Shown here piece by piece: positions 57,484-64,000 of a stretch of 64,000 nucleotides of DNA (positions within the stretch are counted from its first letter, which is position 1; each line of letters begins with the position of its first letter). The stretch is from Spongiibacter taiwanensis. GTDB taxonomy: Bacteria > Pseudomonadota > Gammaproteobacteria > Pseudomonadales > Spongiibacteraceae. Location: the NCBI RefSeq assembly GCF_023702635.1, contig NZ_CP098455.1, forward strand, positions 186,001 through 250,000. The letters run 5' to 3'. Under the pieces are notes generated by a model, which did no database searches, was not told the DNA's origin, and was given only the letters and a program-made list of their open reading frames with translations. The position numbers and the translations under genes were made by a program.

Positions 57484-58992
57484 TCAATCAAATAACCAAA
57501 CCGCAAGCATTGCAACGGTGCTCATGCTGACCGTGTAGGGCAGGGCCATCACGACCATGCGACCATAGGACAGCCGAATCAACGGGGCGAGGGCGGAGGT
57601 CAACAAGAACAGGAAAGCAGCTTGCCCGTTGGGCGTCCCAACACTGGGGATATTGGTGCCGGTGTTGATGGCAACCGCTAGGTGTTCAAGTTCTTCTCGG
57701 GTCAAATTTCCCGCATCAAAAGCAGCTTTCACCTCATTGATATACACCGTCGCCACAAAGACGTTATCGCTGATCACGCTCAACAGGCCATTGGCGACAA
57801 AGAACATCAGCGTTCGGAACTGCCCCTCGAGGGCCAGCACATGCTCAATGATGGGCTTGAACAGGTGTTGCTCGTGAATGACGCCGACGATGGCAAAGAA
57901 CACCACCAACAACGCGGTGAAAGGCAGCGCCTCCTCAAAGGCATGACCAATGCGATGTTCTTCGACCACGCCATTTAAAGCCGTTTGCAGCACAATGATC
58001 GTAAGACCAATCAGGCCAACAGGAGCAATATGGGTTGCCAACCCAATTACGAGGAAAACCCCCACCAAACCCTGAACAATCAGCGTGGCGATATCCGCCT
58101 TGGAGCGCACCTTGTCTTGCTCGGCATCGTATTCCACCAGCACGCTGCGCACCGACTGCGGCAGCGTAGCGCCGTAGCCGAACTTGCCCGTGACCTCCAG
58201 TAAAATACAAGTGATTAAGCCAATGGCCAGGGTCGGCATAGTGACTGGCGACATCACCTGAATAAAGTGTATGAAGTCCCAGCCCATCTTCTCTGCAATC
58301 AACAGATTTTGGGGCTCTCCCACCAGTGTGCAAACACCGCCAAGCGCGGTGCCCACTGCGCCGTGCATCAGCAAACTGCGCAGGAAGGCGCGGAACTGGT
58401 CGAGGTCGGCCCGGGCGTTTTCTTTGACCTGCTGGTCATCACCGTGGTCGTGATCGCTATGTGAGAAATGACCGCCAGAGGCAACCCGGTGATAAACCGA
58501 GTAGAAACCCACGCCCACTGCGATGAGCACCGCCGTTACCGTCAGCGCATCCAGAAATGCACTCAGCATCGCGGCCATCGCCGAAAACATCAGCGACAAC
58601 ATGACCTTGGAGCGAATCTTTAGCAGTAATTTAGTAAAAATAAAGAGCAGCAGGCTCTTCATGAAATAGATACCGGCGACCATAAATACCAGCAGCAGGA
58701 TCACCTCGAAATTGTTCTTGGCCTCAAGATATACCGCCTCTGGTGAGGCCATTCCAATCACGATAGCCTCAATAGCGAGCAATCCACCCGGTTGCAGGGG
58801 ATAGCATTTCAGCGCCATCGCCAGGGTGAAAATAAATTCAGCAATGAGAAACCAGCCGGTGACGAAGGGCCCTATGGTAAATAGTAGGATCGGGTTGAGA
58901 ATCAGGAATCCAATTATCGTTTTTTTGTACCAGAGTGGCGCGTTTCCCAGAAAATTTCCGGCGAAGGCGCGCGACATGGTGGATTGGTCCAT
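57484..58992 (-). CDS. nhaB: Na+/H+ antiporter NhaB
   Basis: Integral membrane sodium:proton antiporter, 502 aa with many hydrophobic segments. The conserved stretch [20 protein letters not shown], then [23 protein letters not shown], and [10 protein letters not shown] match E. coli NhaB as I recall it. Start 58992 ([23 protein letters not shown]) gives the family length; upstream in-frame residues to 59190 are not NhaB-like. A His/Asp-rich loop ([12 protein letters not shown]) sits between segments. Sodium exposure fits a marine habitat. It converges on gspG across a bidirectional terminator. Confidence 0.9.
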
Positions 58993-59268
58993 AGCATCGT
59001 TATCCTTTTTGTATACCAATGTGCATTCTGCACATTTTTCGACAATTATAGCCGCCGGAATAATAATACAGACCACAGCCCATACAAAGCGGGCAACCGG
59101 GCCATTCGGAAAAAATCCATTTTGCAGGCGTATTACGAGTTTGATAAAAGATTGGGGCATAGGGATAACAGGCGTATCAATACCACACACTTTTCCATAC
59201 TTTAACTCAAAGGACAGCCCGCTTAGCCCTAGTGCCGTAGCGCATTGGTATGTCGTTAAGGAGAGTTC

Positions 59269-59961
59269 CTAGAAAAAGGTGGCCTTCAATGCGGTGTACA
59301 CCCGGTTTTCATTGGGTGGCCCCACAACCTGGTCGATACCCATGGCAGCCAGTTCACTCAGTGCCTTTTCGCGTTCAGACCCAGGGATTTCTGCAGTAAG
59401 TAACCTGGTTTCAGAGTGGTTGCCAAGAAAGGGAACAAGCTCGCTGGCGTTACTGATGATGGATACCCTCAGTTCGCGCATCAGCCGCATCCGGTCTGGG
59501 TCATAGCAACCAAAGGCCGCAATCACGGGGTCGGGCTCCCGCAAGCTCTCAATAATGCTGGGGTGGCGAGTCCAGCTACCATAGCGAAGCGCGTATACTC
59601 GGGCGTGGTCGCCTTCGGCTAAATCCCGAAAAGCATAATAAGCGGCGACATAAGGAGACAAACTCCAGGAGAGAATGGGCGTCGGAAAACCGTAGTAATG
59701 CAACTTTCCCAGATAATCGGATAGCTCACGGGGGCCGCTGATCTTAACCAGCGTTTTTTCATAGAAAGACGCCTGTTCAGCAACCTCGGGCAACAACTCG
59801 TCAAAATATCGGGAAAGACTCATGGCCGTCCCGTCGGTCAGCCGATGGAAACTAGTACGAAGCTGCCATTCAGGATTGCTGTGCCCACGGAAATAGAATG
59901 GTTTTCCCTGGTGAATCAGTGACGTAGCCCATTGTTTGTAGTCATGCCATGACCGAAACAA
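59269..59961 (-). CDS. FRG-domain protein beside dif
   Basis: A 230 aa soluble protein with the FRG-domain core: YFRGHSNPEWQLRTSF (FRG at 24-26) and GFPTPILSWSLSPYVAAYYAF (91-111). In the family pattern as I recall it (GLPTRLLDW), the Asp before Trp is replaced by Ser98 here. FRG domains appear in phage-defence and unknown loci; the biochemical function is unsettled. The start is TTG 59961 after TAGGAAA. It lies 111 bases from the dif site, transcribed away from it, with no partner gene. It may be a recent acquisition. Confidence 0.72.
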   Translation of the reverse strand: MFRSWHDYKQWATSLIHQGKPFYFRGHSNPEWQLRTSFHRLTDGTAMSLSRYFDELLPEVAEQASFYEKTLVKISGPRELSDYLGKLHYYGFPTPILSWSLSPYVAAYYAFRDLAEGDHARVYALRYGSWTRHPSIIESLREPDPVIAAFGCYDPDRMRLMRELRVSIISNASELVPFLGNHSETRLLTAEIPGSEREKALSELAAMGIDQVVGPPNENRVYTALKATFF

Positions 59962-60072
59962 ACTAATTTCCTAGCAAAAGAACCATTTAATCGAGAGGCG
60001 AGTATCTAACGCCAGATTTCTTTAGTTCAATGTACTTTGATTTGGCCTCTGCGTTAAATCAAAATATCATTA

Positions 60073-60100
60073 ACTTCGTATAATGTATATTATGTTAAAT
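60073..60100 (+). other. Chromosome dimer resolution site (dif)
   Basis: A 28-base XerCD target: XerC arm ACTTCGTATAA (60073-60083), centre TGTATA (60084-60089), XerD arm TTATGTTAAAT (60090-60100). Centre and XerD arm are identical to E. coli dif; the XerC arm matches at 7 of 11 positions. XerC and XerD recombine here with FtsK to resolve chromosome dimers, and the site marks the replication terminus. The surrounding bases are A+T-rich and hold no gene. KOPS-like octamers in the window point towards it. Confidence 0.93.
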
Positions 60101-60216
60101 CATGGGTAAGGAGGAAAATCTCTGTCTAGACCGACGGTTCACCTGCGCTTTATCCTTCAGACTCCACAACAGTGCCGAACGTATTTTGTTAAGGCTGATT
60201 ATCTGAAGGAATCGCA

Positions 60217-60477
60217 ATGCCAAGGAAGTTCTCACTCGCTGTACTCCTCAGCGTCTGCTGTAGCTCGTTGAACGCAGGAAAGTACAGCGTTTTCACCATT
60301 GATAAATCGCTAGACGATAAGCGACGCCAGCACAGCCAAAGTGAGTGCAGGGCCTACACCCGAAACTTCCAGTATCTCGAAAAGTGCATCAAGAAAAGTT
60401 CTTGCGGCACAGCCAAGAAGAAACAACGAGCAGCTCACCACCACTGGAACATGCTCTACCATAAGTATTGTCTGTAA
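60217..60477 (+). CDS. Small secreted cysteine-containing protein
   Basis: An 86 aa frame with a signal peptide (MPRKFSLAVLLSVCCSSLNA) and a very basic mature part with cysteines spaced as in ECRAYTRNF, EKCIKKSSC and YHKYC, so two disulfides are possible. ATG 60217 follows GAAGGA at 60204-60210 with ideal spacing. No family recognised. It lies 116 bases to the right of dif on the opposite strand to the FRG gene. Confidence 0.6.
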   Translation: MPRKFSLAVLLSVCCSSLNAGKYSVFTIDKSLDDKRRQHSQSECRAYTRNFQYLEKCIKKSSCGTAKKKQRAAHHHWNMLYHKYCL

Positions 60478-60792
60478 ACATGCGCAGCAGATCGCACGCA
60501 GCTGGGCACAGATCACCCGCCGACCTGCCATAGCGATTGAAACCCTCTGGAGCAAGCCGTGGTGAATGCAGTCCACTGATTAACGGCCGGTAGTAATTAT
60601 GCTTACAGACTACGCCGCCATCATTTTTTATTCTCACCCCTAGTGCACGCTAAACCTGCAAGTTGCATTAGTGTTCCTGTGTCACTGCTCAACCTTAATA
60701 ACAGGCAACCACACGGTTGCCGGAAAAATATCAAAGGAACCCCACAATTACGCTGTTGTCACTGTAATTGTCCTAGCTCCGGTGTAGTATTG
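60478..60792. other. Gap between the small secreted gene and prc
   Basis: About 315 bases without a convincing gene. Frames here are short or shadow the neighbours. The prc frame is open leftwards to 60643, but the residues before 60793 (with a Cys-rich, Gly/Pro-containing stretch) do not look like Prc. No terminator or strong promoter was recognised. Confidence 0.5.
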
Positions 60793-62961
60793 ATGCGAAT
60801 TATTAAAATGATCTGGAAGTTACTCTCTGTGCCACGTCTCGCATTCTCTTGTTACAAGCTAGCCCGCTCGGTCCCTGGTGCGCTTCTCTTTGCTGGTCTG
60901 CTCCTCGCACCAAGTCTCCACGCACTTACCCCTGCGCCAGAACACAAGCAGGCAATCACGGAAATAGTGAAGCAGCTGGAAAGTCGGCATTACGTCAAGC
61001 TTGACGTCGACGACGCCTTTTCCTCTCGTCTGCTCAACGCCTACTTGGACGACTTGGACCCAAATCGCCAATATTTTCTGCAAAGTGACATTACCGAGTT
61101 CCAATCGTATCGCTCGCTGCTTGATGATCAATTGAAGAAAGGTGACCTGACTGCGGCTTACAAAATTTTCGATCGGTATCTGGAACGGATCACCCAGCAG
61201 CTAGGCGTTACGGTTAAAGAACTGCCCAAATTGGTGGCAGATTTCGACTTCAAAAAGCAGGAAGAAATTACCCTTGATCGCTCAGAAGCGCCCTGGCCCC
61301 AATCCGAAAAAGAAGCCAACGAAATCTGGCGTAAACAGGTAAAGAATCGCGTGCTCAGCCTTAAATTGGCCGAGAAAAAGGACGAGGACATCGTCGAATT
61401 GTTGACCAAGCGCTTCAAGAATCAGCTGAAGCGGCTTAGCCAGATAGAAGCCGAAGATGTGTTTCAGAGCTACGCCAACGCGGTCGGCTCTCTTTACGAC
61501 CCTCATACCGACTATTTCTCCCCTCGCCTGTCCGAGAACTTCCAGATCAATATGAGTCTGAAGCTGGAGGGGATCGGCGCGGTTCTGCAAATGGAGGACG
61601 ATTACACCAAGGTCGTGAGGCTGGTGGCGGCGGGCCCCGCAGACAAGCAGGGACAATTGCACCCCTCTGATCGCATCGTCGGTGTCGCCGAGGGCAAAGG
61701 CGGCGAAATGCAGGATGTGATTGGTTGGCGATTGGATGATGTTGTCGACCTCATCCGCGGCCCAGCAGGCTCTATCGTCCGGCTGGAAGTGATACCTGCG
61801 GTAGCTCAGAGTGAAGAAGAGCGCATTGAAATTGTGATCGAGCGGAATGAGGTAAAGCTCGAGGAGCAAAGCGCGAAGGGCGAAATTATTGAAGTTCCGG
61901 GTCCGAATGGCGAGATGCACAAGATCGGCGTGATCAATGTGCCCGCTTTCTATCTGGACTTTGAAGCCTTCCGGCTTGGCGATCCCGAATATCGGAGCAC
62001 CACCCGAGATGTGAGCAAGATTCTCGAAGATTTGCTGAATCAGGATGCCGAGGGCATTGTCATTGACCTGCGTAACAACGGCGGCGGCTCTCTGACCGAG
62101 GCCAACGCTCTAGTGGGCCTGTTTATTGAGTCCGGCCCCACGGTGCAAATTCGCCATTCCAGTGCCCGCATTATTCGTGAGGGGAAGCGTCGCAGCTCCC
62201 CCTACTACTCTGGCCCCCTGGCGGTGCTGATCAACCGGATGAGTGCGTCGGCCTCAGAGATTTTCGCCGGTGCCATTCAGGACTATCAACGTGGCATCGT
62301 GCTGGGAACCCAGTCCTTCGGCAAAGGCACAGTGCAATCGGTTAATCCGCTTAGCCACGGCCAACTGAAACTGACGGAGTCCAAATTTTATCGGGTGTCC
62401 GGTGATAGCACGCAAAACCGCGGTGTCATTCCCGATATTGCGTTTCCGCCTATCTACGACAAGGACGAAATCGGCGAGAGCATTCTGGATAATGCGATGA
62501 ATTGGGACCGGATCCCGTCCGCCCGCCACAACTACTATTTCGACCTGAAGTCTGCCCTTCCGAAATTACAAAGCAGTCACGAGAAGCGCATTGCGACGGA
62601 TCCGGATTTTGTATATCTGCAGGAACAGATTTCCCAGATCGAAAAATTGCGCAACCGCAAAACTTTATCCCTCAATATGGAAACGCGTAAGGCTGAGCGC
62701 GAAGAGCAAAAGACCCTCCGGCTAGCGATGGAAAATCGTCGCCGCATCGCTAAAGGCGAGCCGCCGCTGGAGAAGCTTGAAGACGACGACAGCAAGAGCG
62801 ATGATTTGGCAGCGGCAGAAGAAAGCGAGATTAATGCTGCTGAGGACGAATCGAAGGACGACGAAGACAAAGAGCCAGACCCGATGGTGATAGAAGCCAG
62901 CCGCATTCTGGTCGATGCCATCCCCTTCTTCCGGCCCGAACGTCTGGCCATTGGCCCCTAG
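60793..62961 (+). CDS. prc: Carboxy-terminal (tail-specific) protease Prc
   Basis: Periplasmic serine protease with a PDZ domain that processes proteins from their C-termini and controls murein hydrolases. Start 60793 gives 722 aa with a signal-anchor segment (about 27-45: RSVPGALLFAGLLLAPSLHA). The N-terminal part, PDZ domain (about 275-345) and the peptidase with MSASASEIFAGA and QSFGKGTVQ (Ser-Lys dyad) follow, then a Glu/Asp/Lys-rich C-terminal tail. The ribosome binding site is weak and ATG 60808 or a nearby GTG are alternatives. Unusually acidic C-terminal repeats (EDDDSKSDD, EDESKDDEDK) extend the protein beyond the typical E. coli Prc end. Confidence 0.92.
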   Translation: MRIIKMIWKLLSVPRLAFSCYKLARSVPGALLFAGLLLAPSLHALTPAPEHKQAITEIVKQLESRHYVKLDVDDAFSSRLLNAYLDDLDPNRQYFLQSDITEFQSYRSLLDDQLKKGDLTAAYKIFDRYLERITQQLGVTVKELPKLVADFDFKKQEEITLDRSEAPWPQSEKEANEIWRKQVKNRVLSLKLAEKKDEDIVELLTKRFKNQLKRLSQIEAEDVFQSYANAVGSLYDPHTDYFSPRLSENFQINMSLKLEGIGAVLQMEDDYTKVVRLVAAGPADKQGQLHPSDRIVGVAEGKGGEMQDVIGWRLDDVVDLIRGPAGSIVRLEVIPAVAQSEEERIEIVIERNEVKLEEQSAKGEIIEVPGPNGEMHKIGVINVPAFYLDFEAFRLGDPEYRSTTRDVSKILEDLLNQDAEGIVIDLRNNGGGSLTEANALVGLFIESGPTVQIRHSSARIIREGKRRSSPYYSGPLAVLINRMSASASEIFAGAIQDYQRGIVLGTQSFGKGTVQSVNPLSHGQLKLTESKFYRVSGDSTQNRGVIPDIAFPPIYDKDEIGESILDNAMNWDRIPSARHNYYFDLKSALPKLQSSHEKRIATDPDFVYLQEQISQIEKLRNRKTLSLNMETRKAEREEQKTLRLAMENRRRIAKGEPPLEKLEDDDSKSDDLAAAEESEINAAEDESKDDEDKEPDPMVIEASRILVDAIPFFRPERLAIGP

Positions 62962-63098: not shown

Positions 63099-64000
63099 CT
63101 ATCGCGTGGCTTCGCGCATCGTCACAAATTCCTCTGCTACGGTAGGGTGAATGCCGATGGTACTATCGAAATCCGCCTTGGTTGCACCAGCCTTGATTGC
63201 CACCGCGATACCTTGGATGATTTCTCCTGCCTCATCCCCCAGCATATGGGCGCCAATCACTTTGTCACTGCCCCGCTCCACAATCAGCTTCAGAAAGGTC
63301 TTTGTCGGATTGCCGCTCAAGGTGTGTTTGAGATGTCGAAAGTGCGACGTGTACACGGCAATATCTTTGCCCTGCTCTCGGGCGGCCTCTTCACTTAAGC
63401 CGACCGTCGCCAGGTTTGGCAAGGAAAAGATCGCGGTGGGGATATTGGCGTAATCAACCGCCCGGTCATCACCGTTGAACAAACGGCGAGCGAGATTCAT
63501 ACCCTCTGCCAACGCCACCGGTGTGAGTTCCACCCCACCAGTGACATCACCCAGGGCATAGATGCCTGGCTCCTGCGTTTCAAACTGGCTGTTGACCTCG
63601 ATATAGCCGCCGCTGGTGATCGACACCGCGGTATTTTCAAGCCCCAGGTTTTCCAGCGCCGGGCGTCGTCCCGTGGCAAATAGCACGGCTCCGGTGTCCA
63701 GCTCACCGCCACTGGTCAGCGAGAGCCGATACCCCTCCCCGGCTTTCGCAATGGCCGCCACGTTTTCATTGAAACGCAGGTCGATGCCCTTGGTACCCAT
63801 CTCGCCGGCCAGTTGCTCTCTTAATTCACTATCAAAACCACGCAGAAATAGCTCACGCCGATAGATCTGGGACACCTGAATGCCAAGGCCGGCGAGGATA
63901 CTGGCAAACTCTGTTGCAATATAGCCGCCGCCAACAATGGTGATATGACCCGGCAGCGTGTCTAGATAAAATATTTCATTCGAGGTGATAGCGTGCTCAC
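63099..64000 (-). CDS. gor: Glutathione reductase, C-terminal part (cut by window end)
   Basis: The frame continues without a stop from 63099 to the window edge, so the 5' part (FAD-binding motif and redox-active CxxxxC) is outside. The visible part begins in the segment HAITSNEIFYLDTLPG and includes the NADPH-binding GGGYIATEFASIL, an Arg-rich stretch (IYRRELFLRGFDSELRE) consistent with NADPH preference, the FATGRRPALENLGLE region, ALGDVTGGVELTPVA, and the interface-domain end with GIHPTVAEEFVTM (active-site His-Glu pair). It regenerates glutathione, which also feeds the GloB pathway. Mercuric or dihydrolipoyl dehydrogenase relatives are less likely. Confidence 0.9.
   Translation of the reverse strand, partial: EHAITSNEIFYLDTLPGHITIVGGGYIATEFASILAGLGIQVSQIYRRELFLRGFDSELREQLAGEMGTKGIDLRFNENVAAIAKAGEGYRLSLTSGGELDTGAVLFATGRRPALENLGLENTAVSITSGGYIEVNSQFETQEPGIYALGDVTGGVELTPVALAEGMNLARRLFNGDDRAVDYANIPTAIFSLPNLATVGLSEEAAREQGKDIAVYTSHFRHLKHTLSGNPTKTFLKLIVERGSDKVIGAHMLGDEAGEIIQGIAVAIKAGATKADFDSTIGIHPTVAEEFVTMREATR
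63733..63740 (-). promoter_or_regulatory. KOPS-like octamer right of dif, opposite orientation
   Basis: CCCTCCCC on the + strand is GGGGAGGG on the minus strand, matching GGGNAGGG and pointing left, toward dif. It lies inside gor and is the only such match I found to the right of dif. Confidence 0.4.

Follow-up and report, generated by a model that had tools for sequence, protein, structure and literature searches.

We report that the 28-mer at positions 60073-60100 of the window (the whole stretch of 64,000 nucleotides that was analysed, i.e., genome positions 186001-250000) is almost certainly the resident chromosomal dif, an ordinary chromosome dimer resolution site. In the nine of the 18 genus genomes that are without xerC, xerD and dif, a single tyrosine recombinase of ~410 amino acids, together with a dyad upstream of its gene at the point where the KOPS motifs converge, likely does the same job, probably reached by the same FtsK. 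The two readings taken together are, in our view, quite probable. In the best reading of our analysis, a plasmid-type single-recombinase module, which would work like XerL of the Legionellales, may have replaced XerCD/dif in part of the genus. As a site, the window dif is routine and serves to anchor the chromosome map, and its genome represents the state that keeps XerCD/dif, one of the two states in which the terminus of this genus exists. Positions, motif polarity, gene presence or absence at the stated thresholds and the linkage between site and gene were obtained by computation.

The dif site of the window and its neighborhood

The first-pass annotation of this DNA had proposed a near-canonical dif, and the proposal held. 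The plus strand reads ACTTCGTATAATGTATATTATGTTAAAT, and 24 of its 28 bases agree with E. coli dif; the XerC arm holds all of the mismatches (positions 1, 2, 4 and 7), and both the central hexamer and the XerD arm are the same as in E. coli, as the annotation had it; the polarity that it gave, XerC on the left and XerD on the right, was read correctly (Table 1). The 21-mer starting at 60080 has one match in the window at ≤3 mismatches, with 0 expected from 100 shuffles, and one match at the same threshold in the whole genome, a single contig of 3,714,182 bases (reversed-pattern control, 0), so no better dif lies elsewhere on the chromosome. The gap around the site, 255 bp long, is gene-free and A+T-rich, again as annotated; the 100 bp around dif have 30% G+C, a value matched or undercut by just 28 of the 63,900 overlapping 100-bp windows. 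Among 30 further loci compared, the 28-mer is identical in G002, and the XerC arm ACTTCGCATAA occurs in four more relatives. In the available part of PMC2731167, the 28-mer of Thiobacillus denitrificans differs from the window dif by 1 base. Judged from the sequence, the window dif is not unusual, and its XerC arm is a minor variant.

Table 1. Positions (window coordinates) of the dif site, its parts, its gap and the nearest KOPS-like motifs
Feature	Position	Strand	Remarks
dif site, 28 bp	60073..60100	+	4 mismatches vs E. coli dif; sole genome match; at skew switch and KOPS convergence
XerC-binding arm ACTTCGTATAA	60073..60083	+	alignment with E. coli dif
Central hexamer TGTATA	60084..60089	+	same as E. 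coli dif
XerD-binding arm TTATGTTAAAT	60090..60100	+	same as E. coli dif
A+T-rich gap around dif	59962..60216		38% G+C vs 55.7% in the window; ORF table
Nearest left KOPS-like motif GGGNAGGG	57538..57545	+	genome 243538; oriented toward dif; motif scan
Nearest right KOPS-like motif	63733..63740	-	genome 249733; oriented toward dif; motif scan

The gap is flanked by an FRG-domain ORF (59269-59961, minus strand) and an 86-codon ORF without a Pfam match (60217-60477, plus strand), the latter followed by a tail-specific protease ORF (to 62961, plus strand). The FRG-domain ORF matches the PADLOC candidate defense family PDC-S15 (E 2.2e-23); at high similarity it was found in its own genome only among the 21 family genomes searched, with a weak match in G005 (30%, ~100 amino acids). 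A phage origin of the dif region was considered and dropped, 58500-62000 being without a match in the phage collection. A conserved linkage of dif with the tail-specific protease was likewise rejected, as dif lay inside the fetched stretch at 1 of 25 named loci (L102). Please note that 60070-60088 is identical at 18 of 19 bases to part of the loxP site of phage P1. A half-loxP reading fails, since the genome holds no loxP-like site (≤3 mismatches) and ACTTCGYATAA is a frequent XerC arm of the relatives; the likeness arises because loxP resembles the dif consensus, plus chance. The new dyad of the relatives, described below, was not found in the window (≤3 mismatches) nor in the fetched stretches of the window's own genome.

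Terminus features and Xer genes of the chromosome

Cumulative GC skew was checked with 40 separate 10-kb samples and 304 contiguous kb around dif, and the reversal is present. Between 400 kb and 2.11 Mb every one of the 21 samples has a negative skew, and each of the remaining 19, which span 2.185 to 3.64 Mb and include 1-10 kb, has a positive one; over the 304 kb the cumulative maximum falls at window 57671, 2.4 kb to the left of dif. Because the sign of the sample skew flips there, the opposite switch, presumably the origin, lies near 2.11-2.185 Mb, and the replication arms are therefore about 1.9 and 1.8 Mb. KOPS-like motifs over the same 304 kb number 33 on the plus and 6 on the minus strand to the left of dif, and 4 and 25, respectively, to the right; within 60 kb of dif, 28 of 29 are oriented toward it. 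The annotation had gone further and placed the window at the replication terminus. The skew switch and the KOPS convergence at dif speak for this; the wording was too strong, in that dif marks the zone of KOPS convergence and not a measured meeting point of forks. The part of PMC3025954 that is available argues that replication does not end strictly at dif.

The genome encodes XerD near 471 kb (375.6 bits; cut-off, 329.6), XerC near 1779 kb (353.7 bits; cut-off, 335.15) and FtsK_gamma near 255.6 kb (93.6 bits; cut-off, 30.6). In all six genus genomes that have both on one contig (G000, G002, G004, G007, G011, G014), ftsK is on the XerD side of dif. The features that define a dif and are computable here, i.e., the site, its uniqueness, the terminus position, KOPS and the gene set, are all present. 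If the system works as in E. coli, FtsK would load on KOPS when sister chromosomes are joined by recombination and would then travel along the DNA to dif, where XerC and XerD would recombine the two dif copies and separate the chromosomes.

Two other places on this chromosome drew our attention. At genome 136001-166000 (L009, L010), on the left arm and 80-110 kb from dif, the local skew departs from its surroundings (-0.040, -0.007 and +0.004 per 10 kb), possibly an inserted or inverted segment. Close to the opposite skew switch, at 2186151-2187038 (L057, L058), lies a 338-codon tyrosine recombinase that the XerD profile matches in two pieces, a pattern like that of integron integrases.

Absence of XerC, XerD and dif from half of the genus genomes

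We searched 57 genomes for the dif 21-mer, the window's own included; 18 of them make up the genus (G000-G017, own included) and 39 are outside it (G018-G056). A match (≤3 mismatches) was found in 39 of the 57; among the 21-mers with 3 mismatches, that of G034 was scored as dif, and G008, G041 and G051 were scored as dif-less. The genus falls into two halves: dif, XerC and XerD are all present in nine genomes (G000, G001, G002, G004, G007, G010, G011, G013, G014), and all three are missing from the other nine (G003, G005, G006, G008, G009, G012, G015, G016, G017) at the thresholds used, i.e., 2-3 mismatches for dif and E ≤ 1e-60 for the Xer proteins. Weak dif matches with 2 mismatches in G008, G012 and G016, and with 3 in G008, went uncounted; the reversed-pattern control equalled them in G008 and G012 and gave none in G016. 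A more diverged dif was sought in the XerCD-less genomes as well, including with looser scans that covered 80-120 kb in the ftsK region of G006, G008, G009 and G012, and none was credible.

FtsK-gamma is kept throughout the genus (18/18), with the core VQRKLRIGYNRAARLIETME identical in every genome. A search of the XerCD-less genomes with PF00589 at E ≤ 0.001 gave other recombinases; the best match, classified by profile for eight of the nine (all except G017), was an integron integrase above its cut-off in seven and a weakly matching integrase in one; G006 has only two PF00589 proteins, an integron integrase and the ~410-amino acid recombinase. On the FtsK tree, three changes between the XerCD and the XerCD-less state are needed, at least two of them on well-supported branches; since the genomes are related, their counts are not independent.

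A single recombinase with an upstream dyad

The ~410-amino acid tyrosine recombinase is found in all nine XerCD-less genus genomes and in two of the nine that have XerCD (G001, G011). By profile it matches the general integrase domain PF00589, and the Xer models stay far under their cut-off, e.g., XerC with 63.9, 53.3 and 57.9 bits for three copies vs 335.15. Upstream of the gene is a dyad of ~30 bp, two arms of ~12 bp around 6 bp, roughly TATNTCCGATAC-N6-GTATTGGAAATA, which starts 87-98 bp before the gene in all nine XerCD-less genus genomes and 82-144 bp before it in G001, G011, G019, G035, G036 and G041. The arms of the chromosomal dyads are mostly imperfect, with 8-11 of 12 positions matching. 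Nineteen recombinase copies are closer to the query (≥62% identity), and in 15 of them the dyad precedes the gene; as to the other four, the contig continues for 72 bp upstream of G003a and for 2 bp upstream of G005b, and G008b and G012a, which are unmatched at the query start, are without the site. A scan of the fetched loci with a dyad profile, built from those same 15 upstream sites, gave matches solely at the recombinase modules and at second copies in G008, G009 and G012. In each of these three genomes the two dyad copies are in opposite orientation and 6.3-6.4 kb apart (G008 C1:1856519 and 1862808; G012 C1:2170911 and 2177314; G009 C6:17057-23530, L143/L144), and the segment between the dyads of G009 holds a SprT-like ORF, a transposase of the Tn3 family and the start of a second recombinase, which is truncated. 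Extra or truncated recombinase copies occur, as a mobile element would show.

A recognizable dyad was found at none of six distant homologues, nor at those of G055 and G056. The latter two (G055 C1:3180353-3181318; G056 C1:1733015-1734274; 31-32% identity) are located at 4.7 and 18 kb, respectively, from the dif that each genome keeps.

With respect to position, 53 of 55 KOPS within 60 kb are oriented toward the dyad over seven of the nine XerCD-less genomes: 12/13 in G006, 6/6 in G008, 7/7 in G009, 7/8 in G012, 4/4 in G015, 7/7 in G016 and 10/10 in G017, where the count for G009, G012, G015 and G016 covers less than 60 kb on one side of the dyad. G003 and G005 were left out because their contigs are short; the KOPS seen there, from one side only, also point toward the dyad (4/4 and 2/2). 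Over the stretches read, the skew maximum lies 7.5 kb (G009), 10.6 kb (G012), 37 kb (G006) and 62 kb (G008) from the dyad; as the two are not always close, skew alone is a weaker guide than KOPS.

Genomes carrying both sites

Three genomes have dif and the dyad side by side, at distances of 2.4 kb (G001), 5.7 kb (G011) and 2.7 kb (G019). Both Xer proteins were found in G001 and G011; the Xer search covered the genus genomes, and G019 is outside the genus. The KOPS oriented toward dif vs the dyad are 9/11 vs 9/11 in G001, 9/12 vs 8/12 in G011 and 11/13 vs 10/13 in G019, i.e., dif has a small advantage over the dyad in G011 and G019 and none in G001. In G001 the skew is negative on either side of dif. 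A different kind of doubled site was seen in G027, where two dif-like 21-mers (C81:16985 and 29854; 1 mismatch each) lie 12.9 kb apart on the same strand, a pattern expected of an element inserted at dif.

The recombinase beyond the genus and on plasmids

The 39 genomes outside the genus were classed by dif alone. A homologue of the recombinase (E ≤ 1e-10) is present in 10 of the 12 that are dif-less vs 4 of the 27 with dif; G022, which is 75% complete, and G050 have neither dif nor the recombinase. Members of the family are present in 1509 of 72,556 plasmid records (E ≤ 1e-5) and, as a weak match, in 1 of 50,697 phage records. Five plasmid copies, chosen among the matches listed, were looked at, and each has a dyad starting 72-151 bp upstream; the 12-bp arms are perfect in two of them and match at 9, 9 and 10 of 12 positions in the others. 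Viral contigs with the new dyad came down to one (L270), without a recombinase match, and the candidate was set aside. In the recombinase tree, whose most distant rows form long branches, a plasmid copy from Agarilytica sits among the chromosomal copies on a well-supported branch, and the tree as a whole disagrees with that of FtsK; the module has therefore moved between hosts. Relatives of Tn3-family transposases were found in the stretches near the module in G005, G008, G009 and G012, also in G011 and G019, and at E ≤ 1e-10 none was found in the fetched stretches of G003, G006, G015, G016 and G017.

Alternative explanations and the preferred reading

For the window, it is extremely improbable that the 28-mer belongs to a mobile element, either as what remains of an attachment site or as a plasmid-type Xer site. 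Dif-like sites are indeed left by elements that use XerCD, and the adjoining candidate-defense FRG-domain gene, at high similarity unique to its own genome among the 21 family genomes, would suit such an origin; against it, the 28-mer is the sole match in the genome, phage similarity is absent around it, and it sits at the skew switch and the KOPS convergence, with nearly all KOPS within 60 kb (28/29) oriented toward it. A comparable question applies to the nine relatives, where XerC, XerD and dif might appear to be missing together through an artefact of thresholds or incomplete assembly. The limited mismatches of the dif searches, the strict Xer cut and the fact that drafts make up most of the nine, G003 being 84% complete, would allow this. 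Completeness, however, is at least 99% in eight of the nine, the PF00589 search at E ≤ 0.001 returned other recombinases, as judged from the best match in eight of the nine, the looser scans near ftsK in four genomes gave no credible dif, and the absence of all three parts from the same nine genomes is hard to explain by chance, so that we regard an artefact as very unlikely.

The main rival to a replacement of XerCD/dif is a passenger element. The recombinase and its dyad would then serve the resolution or integration of a Tn3-type transposon, a plasmid or an integrative element with a tendency to accumulate near the terminus, and dimers would be resolved otherwise or not at all. The Tn3-family transposase relatives near the module in six genomes, the abundance of the recombinase family on plasmids, the truncated and duplicated copies and the departure of the recombinase tree from the FtsK tree are all what such a passenger would leave. 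Yet a transposase relative is absent from the stretches of five genomes, the recombinase is present in nine of nine XerCD-less genus genomes with an intact dyad in each, 53 of 55 KOPS point toward the dyad in seven genomes, and FtsK-gamma is unchanged. Because of this presence, the intact dyads, the KOPS orientation and the unchanged FtsK-gamma, a housekeeping role fits better, and we consider the passenger explanation unlikely, though it keeps a real share of probability. If the module indeed serves the chromosome, FtsK would bring the sites of the new recombinase together, and one recombinase would do the work of two. The module probably came from plasmids, an origin suggested by the copies found there, and the genomes with both sites look like intermediates. 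It is fairly likely that the module took over conserved chromosome maintenance in the following way: it settled beside dif, coexisted with it (as in G001, G011 and G019), and dif, xerC and xerD were then lost together, with KOPS and FtsK-gamma retained.

Comparison with known systems

Set against dif/XerCD of the proteobacteria, as described in the available parts of PMC2731167 and PMC5357621, the window site is alike in its 11+6+11 bp layout, conserved XerD arm, low G+C, intergenic position and the presence of XerC, XerD, FtsK and KOPS, and nothing is notably different; its 2.4 kb from the skew maximum compares with a median of 7,277 bp in the accessible text of PMC2731167. As to its relatives, in the literature searched, where subscription journals are thinly covered, no report was found of such an exchange of XerCD/dif for a single recombinase. 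Since one genus holds dif-only, both-site and module-only genomes, these marine bacteria offer a setting in which to trace and test the exchange, and to ask if the two recombinases share one FtsK. In PMC2731167, as far as its text was available, Saccharophagus degradans, Colwellia psychrerythraea and the Legionellales are large-genome bacteria without dif/Xer, and their substitute is posed as a question. The distribution of recombinase homologues outside the genus may, if the replacement reading is true, answer how large-genome gammaproteobacteria without dif/XerCD resolve dimers.

Several described systems resemble the relatives' module. With the tyrosine recombinases of plasmids and Tn3-family transposons (PMC8138268, in part) it shares PF00589, frequency on plasmids and, in some genomes, a Tn3-type transposase nearby; unlike them, it is located at the KOPS convergence in genomes without XerCD, and the matching transposase is missing from the stretches of five of the nine. 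Like XerS/difSL of streptococci and XerH/difH of epsilonproteobacteria, as outlined in the parts of PMC2731167 and PMC9765430 at hand, it would combine one recombinase, a site close to its gene and dimer resolution; the recombinase matches the XerS profile weakly (26.5-38.9 bits; cut-off, 267), the hosts of XerS and XerH differ, and the comparison is one by description. The closest likeness in features is to dif/XerL: according to the available portion of PMC9765430, XerL answers the question of the substitute for the Legionellales, whose genomes are those that its methods describe as searched, and here, too, one tyrosine recombinase would replace XerCD, with a long-armed site of ~30 bp near the terminus. 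There are differences as well. The relatives' dyad lies immediately before its gene, while in L. pneumophila >400 kb separate dif from xerL (same source); the chromosomal arms are mostly imperfect, and the exchange is visible inside one genus. Plasmid-borne relatives are shared by both systems, XerL of Coxiella being found on plasmids in the accessible text of PMC9765430, and among the matches listed for our recombinase a plasmid protein of Legionella fallonii is 35% identical over the query.
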